A stretch of 64,000 nucleotides of DNA, taken from assembly GCF_024213555.1 (NCBI RefSeq), contig NZ_JANAVO010000001.1, forward strand, positions 1,054,001 to 1,118,000, read 5' to 3'. Both the position numbers and the translations under genes were made by a program. Source of the DNA: Allokutzneria sp. A3M-2-11 16. Its GTDB lineage: Bacteria > Actinomycetota > Actinomycetes > Mycobacteriales > Pseudonocardiaceae. The notes under the pieces are model-generated. The model had not been told where the DNA came from and did not search any database. It worked only from the letters and a program-made list of their open reading frames with translations. This document shows positions 7,369 through 13,032 of this stretch, piece after piece. Numbering within the stretch: the first letter of the stretch is position 1; each line of letters begins with the position of its first letter.

Positions 7369-8415
7369 ATGAGCACCAGTTCGGCCCGTCGTCGGGAAGC
7401 CCCCGACCGCAACCTCGCCCTTGAGCTGGTCAGGGTGACCGAGGCCGCCGCGATGGCCGCGGGCCGCTGGGTGGGGCTCGGCGAGAAGAACCGCGGCGAC
7501 GGCGCGGCGGTGGACGCCATGCGCAAGCTCATCGGCACCGTCTCGATGCGCGGCGTCGTGGTGATCGGCGAGGGCGAGAAGGACGAGGCGCCCATGCTCT
7601 ACAACGGCGAGGAGGTCGGCAACGGCGACGGGCCGGAGTGCGACGTCGCCGTGGACCCGATCGACGGCACCACGCTGATGAGCAAGGGCATGCCCAACGC
7701 GCTCGCGGTGCTGGCGGTGGCCGAGCGCGGCGCGATGTACGACCCGTCCGCGGTGTTCTACATGGAGAAGCTCGCCGTGGGCCCGGAGGCCGCGGGCGTG
7801 GTGGACCTGGAGGCACCGGTCGCGGAGAACATCCGCAGGGTGGCCAAGGCGAAGTCCACCGACATCTCCGACGTCACCGTCTGCATCCTGGACCGCCCCC
7901 GGCACGAGCGGCTGGTGCACGAGGTGCGCAGGGCGGGCGCGCGGATCCACTTCGTCAGCGACGGCGACGTGGCGGGCGCGATCTCGGCCGCCAGGGCGAA
8001 CACCGGCGTGGACATGCTGCTGGGCATCGGCGGCACCCCCGAGGGCATCATCGCGGCGGCCGCGCTGAAGTGCGTCGGCGGCGAGATCCAGGGCCGCCTG
8101 TGGCCCAAGGACGACGAGGAGCGGCAGCGCGCCATCGACGCCGGTCACGACCTGGACCGCGTGCTCACCACCGACGACCTCGTGCGCGGCGACAACATCT
8201 TCTTCTGCGCGACCGGGGTGACGGACGGGGATCTTCTCCGTGGAGTCCACTACCGTTCGGGGGGTTGCACGACGCAGTCCATCGTGATGCGGTCCAAATC
8301 GGGCACCGTGCGGCTGATCGACGGTTACCACCGGTTGACGAAGCTGCGTGAGTACTCCTCCGTCGACTTCGACCGCACCGAGGACGAGGACGCCGAACCG
8401 CTGCCGCTGCCCTGA
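7369..8415 (+). CDS. glpX: Fructose-1,6-bisphosphatase class II
   Basis: A 348-residue GlpX-type enzyme from ATG 7369, with GGGAGG upstream. It dephosphorylates fructose 1,6-bisphosphate in gluconeogenesis. The lithium-sensitive phosphatase motif is present ([13 protein letters not shown]), preceded by [12 protein letters not shown], and followed by the GlpX-specific [17 protein letters not shown] and [12 protein letters not shown]. The acidic end [14 protein letters not shown] is an actinobacterial trait. In mycobacteria fum follows glpX directly; here about 5.7 kb, carrying four protease genes, an L,D-transpeptidase and a flavin reductase, separate the two. Confidence 0.96.
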
Positions 8416-8430
8416 CGAGCCGAGGCGTCG

Positions 8431-8466
8431 AGCCCGAACGGTCCACTCCGGAAGTCCGTTCGGGCT
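8431..8466 (+). terminator. Terminator after glpX
   Basis: AGCCCGAACGG pairs perfectly with CCGTTCGGGCT across a 14-base loop, 15 bases after the glpX stop codon. It separates glpX from the first protease gene. Confidence 0.75.
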
Positions 8467-8518
8467 GATACCTCCAGCGGGTTACCCCGAACGGATTAAG
8501 CACCCACGCTTCTTGTGA

Positions 8519-8541
8519 CTCCTGGCAGAGGGCGCCAGGGG
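8519..8541 (+). ncRNA. Protease leader hairpin, copy 1
   Basis: The stem CCTGGC/GCCAGG (8521-8526 with 8534-8539), extended by a T-G and a C-G pair, encloses the loop AGAGGGC. It lies 18 bases before the GTG of protease 1, upstream of the ribosome site. The loop and the two G-C pairs next to the closing pair are shared with the three other copies, while the rest of the stem differs by paired changes. Confidence 0.7.
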
Positions 8542-8559
8542 CGAAATGAGGAGTGATCA

Positions 8560-9321
8560 GTGCGTACTCGTTCTCTGATCGTCGGGGTCCTCGCAGCAGT
8601 CACCGCCATCGGCGGTCTCACCCTGCCCGCCGCCGCGGCGGCAACCCCGCAAGACGACGTCTCCGCTCGCATCATCGGCGGCAAGCCCGCCAGCGAGGAC
8701 TACTCGTTCATGGCTTCCCTGCAGGGCAGCTCCGGCAGGCACTCCTGCGGTGCCTCGCTGATCAAGGCCGACTGGGTCGTCACGGCCAAGCACTGCGTCG
8801 GTTCCGGCGCGGCCGGCATGCAGTTCCGGATCGGCACCAAGACCCACAACGCCGGTGGCACCGTGGTCAAGGCGGCCAAGGTCGTCACCCACGCCACCAT
8901 CGACATCGCGCTGGTCAAGCTGGCCAGCCCGGTGCAGGAGAAGACCATCGCGGTCGCCGACTCGGCGGGCGCGGAGGGCACCGCGACCAGGATCATCGGC
9001 TGGGGCCTGACCTGCCCGGTCCGCGGCTGCGGTGACGTGCCGGTGCAGTTGCAGGAGCTGGACACCAAGATCCGGCCGGACAGCGCGTGCACCGGCATCA
9101 CCGGCGCCCAGGAGATCTGCACCGACAACCCCGGCGGCAACTCCGGCGCCTGCTACGGCGACTCCGGCGGCCCGCAGGTGAAGAAGGTCGGGGGCGCGTG
9201 GCAGCTGATCGGCGCCACCAGCCGGGCCGGCAACGGCAACCCGACCTGCGCGACCGGTCCGTCGATCTACGTCGACGTGACCACCTTCAAGGACTGGATC
9301 GCCCAGAACACCGGGGCGTAG
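8560..9321 (+). CDS. Secreted S1-family serine protease 1
   Basis: A 253-residue preproprotein from GTG 8560. A Sec signal peptide ends near AAAAA (about residue 28), a short propeptide follows, and the mature chain starts at IIGG (residues 38-41), the usual zymogen cleavage motif. The catalytic triad is His78 (VVTAKHC), Asp115 (IDIALVK) and Ser202 (GDSGGP). The residue equivalent to chymotrypsin Asp189 is Gly196, so the pocket is not trypsin-like. Six cysteines allow three disulfides. It is the first of four tandem paralogues, each with its own leader hairpin and terminator. Confidence 0.95.
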   Translation: MRTRSLIVGVLAAVTAIGGLTLPAAAAATPQDDVSARIIGGKPASEDYSFMASLQGSSGRHSCGASLIKADWVVTAKHCVGSGAAGMQFRIGTKTHNAGGTVVKAAKVVTHATIDIALVKLASPVQEKTIAVADSAGAEGTATRIIGWGLTCPVRGCGDVPVQLQELDTKIRPDSACTGITGAQEICTDNPGGNSGACYGDSGGPQVKKVGGAWQLIGATSRAGNGNPTCATGPSIYVDVTTFKDWIAQNTGA

Positions 9322-9332
9322 GCGCCCGGGTA

Positions 9333-9368
9333 CTCGGCCCCGCCGTCCCCCGCGACGGCGGGGCCGAG
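9333..9368 (+). terminator. Terminator after protease 1
   Basis: CTCGGCCCCGCCGTC (9333-9347) is perfectly complementary to 9354-9368 across a six-base loop, starting 11 bases after the stop codon. Confidence 0.85.
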
Positions 9369-9446
9369 CCGTGCGCGGTGACGGTGGGTAGCCCCGCCCA
9401 AAGTAGGTGTCCCCCGAACGTGAGCGGGTGTTTACCTTTTCGTGAC

Positions 9447-9471
9447 CCTCCCGGCAGAGGGCGCCGGGAGG
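9447..9471 (+). ncRNA. Protease leader hairpin, copy 2
   Basis: A nine-base-pair stem CCTCCCGGC/GCCGGGAGG encloses the loop AGAGGGC (9456-9462). It ends 19 bases before the GTG of protease 2 and precedes the ribosome site AAAGGAG. Upstream, GTTTACCTTTTCG resembles GTTTACTTTTCG before copy 4, possibly part of a shared promoter. Confidence 0.75.
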
Positions 9472-9490
9472 CGCGAAAGGAGAGAGAACA

Positions 9491-10255
9491 GTGCGTACTC
9501 GTTCTCTGATCGTCGGTCTCCTGGCCGCCACCGCCACCGCGGTCGGCGGCTTCTCCCTGCCCGGTGTCGCGGCCGCGTCACCGGACGGCGATGTCAGCAC
9601 CATGATCGTCGGCGGCGGCAACGCCACCGAGACGTACTCGTTCATGGTGTCCCTGCAGCGCAACGGCGGGCACTTCTGCGGTGGTTCGCTGATCAAGGCG
9701 AACTGGGTGGTCACGGCCAAGCACTGCGTCCAGGGCACCAGCGCCCCGTCGATCCAGGCCCGGATCGGCAGCACCAACCGCACCAGTGGCGGCCAGGTGC
9801 TCGGCGCCAGCCGGATCGTGCTGCACCCGAGCGTCGACCTGGCGCTGGTCCAGCTCTCCGGCTCGTCCACCCAGCGGCCGGTGTCCATCGCGGCCAGCTC
9901 GGGCGCGGTCGGCACCCGGAGCCGGATCATGGGCTGGGGGCAGACCGTGGCCAGCGGCCCCGGTTCGGCCCCGATCACGCTCAAGGAGCTGAACACCTCG
10001 ATCCGCGCCGACGGCGACTGCCGGGGCATCAACGGCCCGGCCGAGATCTGCACCGACAACACCGGCGGCAACCAGGGAGCCTGCTACGGCGACTCCGGCG
10101 GCCCGCAGGTGAAGGGCAGCGCGGGCAACTGGACGCTGATCGGCGCGACCAGCCGCAGCGGCAACGGCAGCTCGATCTGCGCGACCGGCCCGTCGATCTA
10201 CGTCGACGTTCCCGCGCACGGCAGCTGGATCTCGTCCAACACCGGCGGTCGGTAA
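9491..10255 (+). CDS. Secreted S1-family serine protease 2
   Basis: A 254-residue paralogue of protease 1; the first nine residues (MRTRSLIVG) are identical. The signal peptide ends around VAAAS, and IVGG starts the mature chain. The triad is in VVTAKHC, VDLALVQ and GDSGGP. The 189-equivalent is again Gly (QGACYGDSGG). Only four cysteines are visible; the CPxxxGC loop before the active serine in proteases 1, 3 and 4 is replaced by VASGPGS, so this copy lacks one disulfide. The secretion target and natural substrate are unknown. Confidence 0.95.
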   Translation: MRTRSLIVGLLAATATAVGGFSLPGVAAASPDGDVSTMIVGGGNATETYSFMVSLQRNGGHFCGGSLIKANWVVTAKHCVQGTSAPSIQARIGSTNRTSGGQVLGASRIVLHPSVDLALVQLSGSSTQRPVSIAASSGAVGTRSRIMGWGQTVASGPGSAPITLKELNTSIRADGDCRGINGPAEICTDNTGGNQGACYGDSGGPQVKGSAGNWTLIGATSRSGNGSSICATGPSIYVDVPAHGSWISSNTGGR

Positions 10256-10261
10256 TTCGGC

Positions 10262-10303
10262 ACTGAGAGCCCCTTTCCGTCGAGGCGGAAAGGGGCTCTC
10301 AGT
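10262..10303 (+). terminator. Terminator after protease 2
   Basis: An 18-base-pair stem, ACTGAGAGCCCCTTTCCG paired with its complement across TCGAGG, six bases after the stop codon. Confidence 0.9.
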
Positions 10304-10437
10304 CACTTCCACAATTGCTGCGCCAAAGCGGTGAAGGGATGAGCGATTATGCGGCCGAGTGCCCCAGAGTTGTACATCCCCGACGCTGCCAACAGGCGGT
10401 ACTACGAACGTGGCGCGGATCACTAGCTTCATTCTCA

Positions 10438-10460
10438 GCTTCGGCAGAGGGCGCCGAAGC
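10438..10460 (+). ncRNA. Protease leader hairpin, copy 3
   Basis: The stem GCTTCGGC/GCCGAAGC (8 bp) encloses the loop AGAGGGC (10446-10452). It ends 15 bases before the GTG of protease 3. The outer stem (GCTTC/GAAGC) shares no sequence with copy 2 (CCTCCC/GGGAGG) yet keeps full pairing. Confidence 0.75.
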
Positions 10461-10475
10461 GAGAGGAGCACTTCC

Positions 10476-11240
10476 GTGAAGATTCGCGCACTTCTCGTCG
10501 GACTGCTCGCCACGGCCGCCGCCGCGCTCGGCATGGCCGGGACGGCGGCAGCCACCCCTGCGAGCCCTGGTGACGTCGGCACGATGATCGTCGGCGGCAC
10601 CAACGCCACCCAGACCTACTCGTTCATGGTGTCCCTGCAGAACACCTCGGGCGGGCACTTCTGCGGCGGTTCCCTGATCAAGGCCAACTGGGTGGTCACG
10701 GCCAAGCACTGCGTCCAGGGCAAGTCGCCCGCGTCGGTCAGGGCCAGGATCGGCACCACCAACCGCACCAGCGGCGGCAGCTACGTCGCCGCGGCCGCGA
10801 TCCACGTCCACCCGAGCTACGACATGGCCCTGGTGCGCCTGGCCAGCTCCGTGGCGCAGGCCCCGATCAAGGTCGCGGCCAGCTCCGGCGCGGTCGGCAC
10901 GGCCACCCGCATCATCGGCTGGGGCCAGACCTGCCCGAGCCCCGGCGGTTGCGGCGCGCCGATCACCCTGCAGCAGCTGAACACCTCGATCGTGGCCGAC
11001 GGCTCGTGCGGCGGCATCTACGGCTCGGTGGAGATCTGCACCAGCAACCCCGGCGGCGTCGCGGGCGCCTGCTACGGCGACTCCGGCGGCCCGCAGATCA
11101 AGATGGTCGGCGGCCAGTGGGAGCTCATCGGTGCCACCAGCCGCTCGGGCGGCGGGTCGACCTGCGCCGTGCGCCCGTCGATCTACGAGGACGTCCCCGC
11201 TTTCCGCAGCTGGATCAGCGGTATCGCGGGCGCCGTCTAA
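10476..11240 (+). CDS. Secreted S1-family serine protease 3
   Basis: A 254-residue protein from GTG 10476, placed seven bases after AGAGGAG; the longer in-frame opening upstream would run through the leader hairpin and is rejected. The signal peptide ends at TAAAT, then IVGG. The triad motifs are VVTAKHC, YDMALVR and GDSGGP, with Gly at the 189 position. It is closest to protease 2 in the N-terminal half (SFMVSLQ, GGHFCGGSLIKANW) but keeps the CPSPGGC disulfide loop of proteases 1 and 4, suggesting duplication with exchange between copies. Confidence 0.95.
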   Translation: MKIRALLVGLLATAAAALGMAGTAAATPASPGDVGTMIVGGTNATQTYSFMVSLQNTSGGHFCGGSLIKANWVVTAKHCVQGKSPASVRARIGTTNRTSGGSYVAAAAIHVHPSYDMALVRLASSVAQAPIKVAASSGAVGTATRIIGWGQTCPSPGGCGAPITLQQLNTSIVADGSCGGIYGSVEICTSNPGGVAGACYGDSGGPQIKMVGGQWELIGATSRSGGGSTCAVRPSIYEDVPAFRSWISGIAGAV

Positions 11241-11251
11241 CCGGTACCGGG

Positions 11252-11281
11252 AGTGGCCCGCCGGGAGCCCGGCGGGCCACT
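11252..11281 (+). terminator. Terminator after protease 3
   Basis: AGTGGCCCGCCGG pairs with CCGGCGGGCCACT across a four-base loop, 11 bases after the stop codon. Confidence 0.85.
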
Positions 11282-11414
11282 TCTCTACTGCATTCGGGCC
11301 ATCGCGGCGGCGCGATGCGCACAAAAGCCGCACTATGGACCATTGGGGGGACGGCGCATTCAATTCCCCTTTCGTCGGTACCACCCAATTCAAAACGGGC
11401 GTTTACTTTTCGTT

Positions 11415-11439
11415 CATCCCGGTTGAGGGCACCGGGATG
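11415..11439 (+). ncRNA. Protease leader hairpin, copy 4
   Basis: The stem CATCCCGGT/ACCGGGATG (9 bp) encloses the loop TGAGGGC, one base different from the AGAGGGC of the other three. The closing pair has changed from C-G to T-A as a pair. Confidence 0.75.
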
Positions 11440-11456
11440 GGAGGAGCGTGAACACC

Positions 11457-12245
11457 GTGCGAATGCGTTCTCTGCTCACCGCCGCGGTCGCCGTCGCGAT
11501 CACTCTGTTCGGCCAGGGAATGGCCGCCGCGACCCCGACCGGCGATGTCGGTTCCCGGATCGTGGGCGGCGGCGACGCCACCGAGACCTACTCGTTCATG
11601 GCTTCGATGCAGGCCAAGGCCACCGGCGCGCACCGCTGCGGCGCCTCCCTGATCGCTCCGCGGTGGCTGGTCACCGCGGCCCACTGCGTCGCCCAACAGA
11701 ACCCCGCCGACTACCAGTTCCGCATCGGCAGCACCAGCCGCACCGGCGGCGGTGAGCTGGTCGGCGCGGACAGGTTCGTCCAGCACCCCTGGTACATCCC
11801 GGTCTTCCTGGGCTGGAACGACATCGCCGTCGTGCACCTCACCGCACCGGTCGGCGCGGCGCCGATCAAGATCGCCGACGCCTCGCCCGCCGCGCAGACG
11901 GCCGCGCGGATCATCGGGTGGGGCCTGACCTGCCCGGAGCGCGGGTGCGGCCAGCCCCCGGTCACCCTCCAGGAACTGAACACCCGGATCGAGGCCGACA
12001 GCTCGTGTTCGGCCATCCCGTTCGACGCGCGGCACGAGCTCTGCGTCGACGCCCCGAACAACACCGCGAGCGCCTGCTTCGGCGACTCCGGCGGGCCCGC
12101 GCTGCTCAAGGCGGACGGGGTGTGGCGGCTGGCCGGGGCGACCAGTCGCGGACAGAGCCTGCGGTGCACTTCCGGCGACACCATCTACAGCGATGTGACG
12201 GCCCACCGAGACTGGATCAACCAGCAGCTCGGATCGATTCGGTAA
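11457..12245 (+). CDS. Secreted S1-family serine protease 4
   Basis: About 262 residues from GTG 11457, chosen because GGAGGAG lies 12 bases upstream and the encoded VRMRSLL matches the paralogue start; a GTG at 11448 is too close to that site. The mature chain starts at IVGG. The triad is in LVTAAHC, NDIAVVH and GDSGGP. This is the most divergent copy: it has the canonical TAAHC instead of TAKHC, a longer loop before the Asp (PWYIPVFLGWND), an insertion IPFDARHEL, and Ser at the 189-equivalent (ASACFGDSGG). Confidence 0.93.
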   Translation: MRMRSLLTAAVAVAITLFGQGMAAATPTGDVGSRIVGGGDATETYSFMASMQAKATGAHRCGASLIAPRWLVTAAHCVAQQNPADYQFRIGSTSRTGGGELVGADRFVQHPWYIPVFLGWNDIAVVHLTAPVGAAPIKIADASPAAQTAARIIGWGLTCPERGCGQPPVTLQELNTRIEADSSCSAIPFDARHELCVDAPNNTASACFGDSGGPALLKADGVWRLAGATSRGQSLRCTSGDTIYSDVTAHRDWINQQLGSIR

Positions 12246-12260
12246 AGGCCACCGAGACGG

Positions 12261-12291
12261 CTGGGGCCCGCAACCCTGCGGCGGGCCCCAG
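12261..12291 (+). terminator. Terminator after protease 4
   Basis: CTGGGGCCCGC pairs perfectly with GCGGGCCCCAG across a nine-base loop, 15 bases after the stop codon. Confidence 0.85.
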
Positions 12292-12429: not shown

Positions 12430-13032
12430 GTGTACGTGCGTAAGACCGTGATGACCATGGCGACGCTGACCGCGACAGGGCTGTTGCTGACAGCCTGCGG
12501 CGGCGGGGCCGACGTGCAGAACGCCGCGCAGCAGAGCCCGTTGCCCAGTTCGTCGTCCGTTCAGCCGACGACGACGTCCTCGTCGACCACGCAGCCCACG
12601 ACCCAGCCGAGTTCCACGCAGCCGAAGCCGTCCGAGAAGCCCAAGCCGGAACCCAAGCCGGAGCCGAAGCCCACCGGCGAGGCCCCATGCACCAACATCG
12701 CGGCGAAGGCGTGCATCGACCTCTCGGCGAACAAGTCCTGGCTGCTGGAGGGCGGCAAGGTCGTCTACGGCCCGGTGCCGATCACCCACGGGCGCAAGGG
12801 TTATCGGACTCCGCCCGGCAGCTTCCGGGTGTTCCACAAGAACAGGAACCACAAGAGCAGCATCTTCAACAACGCGCCGATGCCGAACTCGGTGTTCTTC
12901 AACGGCGGCATCGCCTTCCACCAGGGCAGCCTGCGCCAGACCTCGCACGGCTGCATCCACCTGTCGATGGCGGCCTCGCAGAAGTACTACAGCTACCTCG
13001 GCTACGGCGACGTGGTTCAGGTCGTTCCGTAA
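12430..13032 (+). CDS. L,D-transpeptidase (YkuD domain) lipoprotein
   Basis: A 200-residue protein. The signal peptide ends with the lipobox LLTAC (Cys23), so it is probably a membrane-anchored lipoprotein. Residues 35-85 are a Ser/Thr/Pro-rich spacer with KPKPEPKPEPKP, suited to spanning the cell wall. The C-terminal YkuD domain carries GIAFHQGS and the catalytic SHGCIHLS with the nucleophile Cys. Such enzymes make 3-3 crosslinks in peptidoglycan or attach proteins to it. It lies between the protease island and the converging flavin reductase gene. Confidence 0.88.
   Translation: MYVRKTVMTMATLTATGLLLTACGGGADVQNAAQQSPLPSSSSVQPTTTSSSTTQPTTQPSSTQPKPSEKPKPEPKPEPKPTGEAPCTNIAAKACIDLSANKSWLLEGGKVVYGPVPITHGRKGYRTPPGSFRVFHKNRNHKSSIFNNAPMPNSVFFNGGIAFHQGSLRQTSHGCIHLSMAASQKYYSYLGYGDVVQVVP

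Follow-up and report, generated by a model that had tools for sequence, protein, structure and literature searches.

A hairpin with a conserved loop and an interchangeable stem precedes S1 protease genes in Allokutzneria and other Pseudonocardiaceae

The protease array and its leader hairpins

The stretch of Allokutzneria sp. A3M-2-11 16 DNA analyzed here (the window; 64,000 nt of contig NZ_JANAVO010000001.1) contains a tandem array of four genes for S1 (trypsin-type) secreted proteases, flanked by glpX and an L,D-transpeptidase gene (Table 1). Each protease gene is preceded by a short hairpin with a seven-nucleotide loop, AGAGGGC in copies 1 to 3 and TGAGGGC in copy 4, and the gaps from hairpin to start codon are 18, 19, 15 and 17 nt for genes 1 to 4. 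A preliminary description of this DNA had located all four hairpins correctly, and the changes of stem pairs that it listed are accurate; pair 7 of copy 1, a G.U wobble, is to be added to that list. Gene 4 has in-frame GTG starts at 11448 and 11457, and the second is favored because it is ATG in both same-genus relatives. Gene starts and control genes throughout are the calls of a simple custom gene caller.

Protein identity to copy 2 is 58% for copy 1, 68% for copy 3 and 49% for copy 4. All four hairpins are kept in two same-genus genomes, and in the near-identical cluster of genome G002, also of this genus, copies 2 and 3 carry C-G to T-A double changes at orthologous sites. The folding z-scores of leaders 1 to 4 against shuffled sequences are -1.65, -4.50, -2.79 and -3.97, and the first of these values means that copy 1 cannot be proven from folding energy alone. 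When G-C and A-T pairs are weighted, one of 47 other called genes in the window reaches the score of the weakest hairpin (20), and four of the 47 qualify by stem length alone (at least 8 bp, G.U allowed). Of the 11 matches to the pattern GRYWGAGGGCRYC across the 8.8-Mb genome, the four in the protease leaders are alone in having an extended stem.

A scan with Rfam detected only a tRNA at the gathering score in the window, and the two sub-threshold matches at E ≤ 5 in 8380-11500 do not fall on a hairpin. No description of the element was found among the literature matches listed, as far as the text of those sources was available. The two Rfam scans and this literature agree with the earlier statement that no described RNA family has this form.

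Table 1. Coordinates and sequences of the array, its leader elements and three further own-genome hairpins. Loops are in square brackets.
Feature	Position	Strand	Sequence or structure	Remark
Hairpin 1	8519..8541	+	CTCCTGGC[AGAGGGC]GCCAGGGG	8 bp (one G.U), loop 8527-8533; model R1 E = 0.0115, R1 training sequence
Hairpin 2	9447..9471	+	CCTCCCGGC[AGAGGGC]GCCGGGAGG	9 bp, loop 9456-9462; R1 E = 7.9e-4, training sequence
Hairpin 3	10438..10460	+	GCTTCGGC[AGAGGGC]GCCGAAGC	8 bp, loop 10446-10452; R1 E = 0.00493, training sequence
Hairpin 4	11415-11439 (11413..11441 with two added G.U pairs)	+	CATCCCGGT[TGAGGGC]ACCGGGATG	9 bp, loop 11424-11430; R1 E = 0.00171, training sequence
S1 secreted protease gene 1	8560..9321	+		PF00089 126.4 bits
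S1 protease gene 2	9491..10255	+		PF00089 126.9 bits
S1 protease gene 3	10476..11240	+		PF00089 131.1 bits
S1 protease gene 4	11457..12245	+		PF00089 126.7 bits (scanned from 11448)
-10 box position, gene 1	8505..8510	+	CACGCT	No TAnnnT match; placed by hairpin alignment; weakest of the four
Putative -10 box, gene 2	9433..9438	+	TACCTT	
Putative -10 box, gene 3	10424..10429	+	TAGCTT	
Putative -10 box, gene 4	11404..11409	+	TACTTT	
GGTACC-like sites, copies 1-4	8480-8495, 9404-9421, 10398-10410, 11378-11400			By eye; degenerate in copies 1 and 2
glpX	7372-8415			Flanks the array
L,D-transpeptidase gene	12430-13032			Flanks the array
Terminator-like hairpin	12262-12290		loop AACCCTGC	3′ of gene 4; model R3 E = 0.018
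L138			CCCCGGG[TGAGGG]CCCGGGG	Own genome, divergent S1
L140			CCTCGT[TCGAGGGC]ACGAGG	Own genome, divergent S1
L152			GAAACCGC[ACCCCTGC]GCGGTTTC	Own genome, divergent S1

Stem covariation and distribution of the loops

Leaders of S1 genes were collected across the Pseudonocardiaceae. The family loci cover the best 80 of at least 525 relatives; 95 S1 gene regions were taken, plus 10 from the window and from loci L004 and L014. Further leaders came from 15 family genomes sampled with PF00089 (60 by region, 26 by locus), from the window's own genome (19) and from Crossiella-like loci (5). The total of 198 distinct S1 leaders includes a few genes twice with different starts and excludes L152. Two loop classes are found at about -45 to -20 before these genes. 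Hairpins with (N)GAGGGC loops occur in Allokutzneria, Crossiella, Streptoalloteichus, Longimycelium, Actinokineospora and Actinophytocola, and hairpins with (A)CCCTGC loops occur in Lentzea, Saccharothrix, Umezawaea and Actinosynnema, with a bulged stem in six Saccharothrix leaders. Hairpins with other loops take a like position in Saccharopolyspora and some Amycolatopsis, and some leaders have no hairpin. Loop length is 7 or 8 nt across members and was picked for each sequence to give the longest stem in the tables of the two classes and in the tree-aware test described below. GAGGGC occurs 33 times in the 198 leaders, and with L094 as the one exception each occurrence falls in a hairpin loop closed by 6 bp or more.

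Compensatory change in the stem was measured in three alignments. In A6 (13 loop-anchored sequences) 90.6% of the cells are paired, double changes occur in eight of nine pairs, and the covariation score is 0.645; shuffles score 0.240 and slid registers no more than 0.147. A10, from the CCCTGC class (8 sequences), scores 0.586 against 0.162 for shuffles, and A9, from the class with 8-nt loops (9 sequences), scores 0.427 against 0.135 and has two mostly broken outer pairs. Mapping of pairs 1 to 7 of 32 members onto a protein tree gave 20 double-to-paired events, 19 of them from one standard pair to another, and 8 single-to-paired events; one double-to-unpaired and two single-to-unpaired events all fall at pair 7. 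A tree-aware null on these 32 members was computed with a custom script that follows the idea of R-scape, rather than with R-scape itself, by re-placing substitutions branch by branch with L094 dropped. Two stem pairs are individually significant against this null (E < 0.004), and stem pairs make up eight of the top ten among 190 column pairs, six of these eight having E > 1 singly. The three alignments and the tree-aware null show compensatory pairing change beyond phylogeny, and on this comparative evidence the stem pairing is under selection. The earlier preference for a functional RNA over leftover homology is well supported, and in the larger set two stem pairs keep significant covariation. 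Pairing decays outward: among 26 distinct GAGGGC-class stems (L094 included) 25 are paired at position 6, 19 at position 7, 17 at position 8, 12 at position 9 and 17 at position 10, and the aligned conservation of this class is limited to one hairpin of about 25 nt.

The element is enriched in S1 leaders relative to controls. Hairpins with a GAGGG or CCCTG loop are present in 35 of 153 de-duplicated S1 leaders and in none of 342 controls from two genomes, from which genes with an early IVGG or IIGG had been removed; any strong hairpin (score at least 18) is present in 40 of the 153 and in 24 of the 342. In genome G008, CCCTGC is the top enriched hexamer (14 of 29 S1 leaders and 7 of 157 controls, Fisher 1.2e-8), and GAGGGC is found in none of the 29. 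The 192 controls from the window's own genome in the same analysis include three S1 genes (L138, L140 and L152). G008, a Pseudonocardiaceae genome, has 53 matches to S1 proteases (E ≤ 1e-20), many of them arranged in tandem, and its locus L231 (contig C13) has a perfect 19-bp stem, much longer than usual, with loop AACCCTGC upstream of an S1 gene.

The window's own genome has 28 PF00089 matches, and 21 leaders were examined, 17 in addition to the window's four. The S1 genes L138, L140 and L152 are divergent from the four in the window (116-131 bits to the four-gene profile), and their hairpins have unrelated stems and represent both loop classes. A second tandem array in this genome (G000:C11:270411-273090) contains three S1 proteases, one of which has a hairpin with a GAGGG loop.

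Three covariance models, R1, R2 and R3, were used for searches, and their own training sequences are necessarily among the matches. A search of 200 family genomes with R1, of the kind that the preliminary description had proposed, gave 22 matches at E ≤ 0.0145, and 19 are upstream of S1 genes, though 16 of these either served for training or are nearly identical to a sequence that did (Allokutzneria, Streptoalloteichus, Longimycelium and Crossiella); L112, L115 and L120 are new. The 30 matches of R2 at E ≤ 0.0109 comprise 16 before S1 genes, 1 before an M4 gene and 13 before neither, and the 28 of R3 at E ≤ 0.0105 comprise 17 before S1 genes and 11 elsewhere. Matches outside the training sets include L344 (R3) and L395, L409, L410 and L411 (R2). 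The weaker matches are largely chance, as judged by the 13 of 30 and 11 of 28 that are not upstream of proteases. Inspection of 39 further matches, hand-chosen from the lists rather than drawn at random, gave L453, an S1 orthologue of L138, and two M4 genes. The M4 leaders L431 (G131, E 0.0069) and L434 (G032, E 0.025) carry CCCCCG(A/G)[TCGAGGGC]TCGGGGG shortly before the Shine-Dalgarno sequence (SD) of a thermolysin-type gene; both genes have the propeptide family FTP, and the catalytic domains Peptidase_M4 and M4_C are found in the longer G131 reading (L454). The own-genome locus L356 (C2:169934, E 0.116) has CCCCGCC[AACCCTGC]GGCGGGG before a gene for a secreted S8 subtilase (PF00082 132 bits).

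The class was searched with R1 only. In 197 class genomes, own genome included, and with stricter filters, six other genomes matched at E ≤ 0.1, and none of these matches precedes an S1 gene by a check of open reading frames. In 15 leaders of the 16 S1 homologues from the class search, several of which have doubtful starts, neither GAGGGC nor CCCTGC lies in a loop of the two best hairpins. These results suggest, from sequence comparison, that the element is absent outside the Pseudonocardiaceae.

Position after a -10-like box and strand of the signal

Of 68 leaders, 54 (24 of 32 in one loop class and 30 of 36 in the other) have a TAnnnT box whose first base is 13-16 nt 5′ of the seven-bp stem, compared with a mean of 7 and at most 11 in shuffles; after de-duplication 25 of 36 leaders have it (shuffle mean 1.6, maximum 5). 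The 68-leader set omits L094 and 18 loci in which CCCTGC lies outside a register-clean hairpin, and the pairing table of the CCCTGC class omits the same 18, so the percentages lean upward. The fixed distance from a -10-like box indicates that the hairpin is probably at the extreme 5′ end of the mRNA; it speaks only indirectly to the possibility of a transcript start downstream of the hairpin, which the preliminary description had named as contrary evidence. When +1 is predicted at the seventh base after the box, 27 leaders have a predicted offset of 0-4 nt between 5′ end and stem, in a model that admitted only offsets of 0-5.

In many leaders of the GAGGGC class, a GGTACC-like site recognized by eye lies about 19-20 nt 5′ of the -10-like box, in Allokutzneria often with CGAAC after it, and is possibly a -35 or activator site. 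A site of the AdpA type (consensus TGGCSNGWWY) was considered and rejected; copy 1 shows a partial likeness and the other copies show none.

Two kinds of count bear on the strand at which the signal acts. In 25 distinct GAGGGC-class stems, pairs 1 to 6 comprise 145 Watson-Crick cells, 5 G.U and 0 A.C, and addition of pair 7 brings the counts to 7 G.U and 5 A.C. For the CCCTGC class the counts in pairs 1 to 6 are 6 G.U and 2 A.C. The excess of G.U over A.C weakly favors a sense RNA. Loop orientation is the stronger argument: of the 198 S1 leaders 33 contain GAGGGC and 2 its reverse complement GCCCTC, and 56 contain CCCTGC and 2 its reverse complement GCAGGG.

Proposed role of the hairpin

The reading to which an even chance is given is that the element is a 5′-terminal RNA stem-loop with a recognized loop that controls the decay or the translation of exported-protease mRNAs. 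Each protease gene would have its own promoter and give an mRNA whose 5′ end is only a few nucleotides away from a stable stem-loop. As long as it stays paired, the stem would be free to vary, its role being to block the 5′ end of the mRNA and to hold the fixed loop open. The loop, of the GAGGGC or CCCUGC class, would be recognized by a trans-acting factor, either a protein or a small RNA; such a loop-reading factor is suggested by a fixed loop on interchangeable stems common to many genes. Stem and loop would jointly set mRNA lifetime and translation, and in this way the set of exported proteases would be placed under joint control. The sequence comparisons show the hairpin itself, stem covariation, a conserved loop, a preferred strand, a constant position behind a -10-like box and enrichment ahead of S1 genes; from these we infer the transcript start at the hairpin, the action on mRNA decay or translation and the loop-reading factor. 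The observation in the preliminary description is confirmed and was understated, and its interpretation as a functional RNA is supported; control of mRNA stability or translation for the exported proteases, which it had suggested, is a proposed role.

Several findings weigh against this reading. The two loop classes are unlike each other, and there would be either two factors or a loop whose identity is less important than its presentation. CCCTGC is less bound to hairpins than GAGGGC, as an uninterrupted stem of at least 5 bp surrounds 33 of its 56 occurrences in the 198 leaders, and only 3 of the 14 occurrences in G008 S1 leaders are in a clean stem. The element is missing from many S1 genes; in the own genome a hairpin of 6 bp or more that presents the loop motif is found in 7 of 21 leaders. 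Window copy 1 has no TAnnnT box, A.C (5) exceeds G.U (2) at pair 7 of the GAGGGC class, and the count of further pair types is matched by shuffles (54 of 500 in A6, 47 in A9 and 12 in A10). For M4 there is one orthologous pair, in two genera, with folding no better than that of shuffles (z -0.46 and -0.98); for S8 there is one gene, out of 16 S8 leaders examined among 20 S8 matches. The M4 and S8 hairpins are leads rather than proof, and chance could account for either.

A wider proposal is held more tentatively. Hairpins at the mRNA 5′ end with interchangeable stems and two fixed loops may act as a loop code that marks the mRNAs of secreted proteases with unrelated catalytic types (S1, M4 and S8) in the Pseudonocardiaceae, and a loop-reading factor would join these mRNAs in one post-transcriptional regulon.

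The alternative that survives best, although it is considered unlikely, is a plain stabilizing 5′ stem-loop in which the stem alone is important and the loops are conserved through common descent within clades. It agrees with the other-loop hairpins at the same position in Saccharopolyspora, some Amycolatopsis and others, and 5′ stem-loops are known stabilizers: in B. subtilis, long stretches of RNA downstream can be stabilized by a hairpin located at the 5′ end or close to it, and in E. coli RppH conversion is hindered by such a hairpin (PMC3997798). It does not readily account for the recurrence of these loops on stems of unrelated sequence ahead of divergent S1 genes and of an M4 gene, for the enrichment of CCCTGC in G008, mostly without a clean stem, or for the absence of motif-loop hairpins from the controls.

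Rather less likely is a longer switch, a thermometer or translational off-switch, of which the hairpin is the core and in which an upstream pyrimidine-rich stretch pairs with the SD. An outer helix covers the SD region in the folds of all four window leaders, and in the 27 leaders with a predicted +1 the median SD pairing is 0.78 when 20 nt more on the 5′ side are included. Folded from the predicted +1 the median is 0.35; the SD is thus predicted to be mostly closed in the longer form and mostly open in the shorter one. The pyrimidine-rich stretch shares positions with the -10-like box, and the outer pairs at positions 7-10 are less well kept across genera than position 6 in the 26 stems. As for pairing between loop and downstream sequence, a complementary GCCCT precedes the SD in the two M4 leaders, and no such pseudoknot was seen by eye in the window leaders, where no systematic test was made.

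The least probable alternative, a double-stranded DNA operator near +1 whose inverted repeat is bound by a dimeric transcription factor with no need for RNA structure, fits a site directly after the -10-like box, where repressors are often found, the CCGG-N-CCGG half-sites seen by eye in several genera and the recurrent GGTACC-like site of the promoter region, but the arms change in step through the 19 exchanges of standard pairs, the fixed part of the GAGGGC class is the spacer and not the arms (in a set collected by its GAGGGC), the motif is asymmetric and one-sided rather than strand-symmetric with conserved half-sites, and loop length varies.

The 5′-terminal stem-loop with a recognized loop has counterparts in other bacteria. 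Hambraeus (2002), a reference of PMC3997798, reportedly showed that a 5′ stem-loop together with ribosome binding sets mRNA stability in the aprE leader of Bacillus subtilis. That leader likewise places a 5′ stem-loop before a secreted protease gene, with an effect on mRNA stability that is here proposed for the Allokutzneria hairpins; it differs in that aprE encodes a subtilisin in the Firmicutes, whereas the present element has a fixed loop and a variable stem before many paralogous genes. The aprE leader is not known to have a conserved loop common to a regulon. Emory, Bouvet and Bricker, also cited there, are said to have described 5′-terminal stem-loops of E. coli ompA, papA and synthetic mRNAs. 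The predicted distance from the 5′ end to the stem would resemble their geometry, which hinders RppH and RNase E, and the phylum is different. These stem-loops are not known for a conserved loop either, and a fixed loop on interchangeable stems before many genes goes beyond the stabilizing 5′ stem-loops as they are known.

Leader hairpins of CsrA/RsmA targets resemble the proposed arrangement in that a regulator reads a loop in a set of leaders near the SD. A CsrA/RsmA site requires GGA in the hairpin loop, and neither the GAGGGC nor the CCCUGC loop contains GGA. A metabolite riboswitch has a conserved aptamer with junctions or a larger core, a form that the single conserved hairpin of the GAGGGC class does not have. 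Control of exported enzymes in actinomycetes has been described mostly at the level of transcription factors. A conserved RNA leader common to many secreted protease genes would bring a post-transcriptional layer of control to light and provide a bait for an RNA-binding factor; being small and easy to mutate, the element could serve to adjust secretion in industrial actinomycetes.

The Actino-pnp, msiK, mraW and pheA motifs presumably have structures larger than the protease-leader hairpin. They belong to a catalogue of 104 RNAs (PMC2864571) and are, like this element, structured actinobacterial 5′ leader RNAs recognized by comparative genomics. They are named for other genes, and the words protease and peptidase are absent from the main text of that source in the part available.

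Two further hairpins were observed. The loop of the terminator-like hairpin 3′ of protease gene 4 belongs to the second loop class, and this hairpin is conserved in both same-genus genomes; pairing would be possible between its CCCU and AGGG in the 5′ loop. The likeness is probably due to chance. In Longimycelium, locus L399 (minus strand, 1500-1527) has the same promoter layout and the hairpin ACCCGGT[TCGAGGGC]ACCGGGG with no recognizable protease gene downstream, and it is a candidate for a relic leader or a small RNA.

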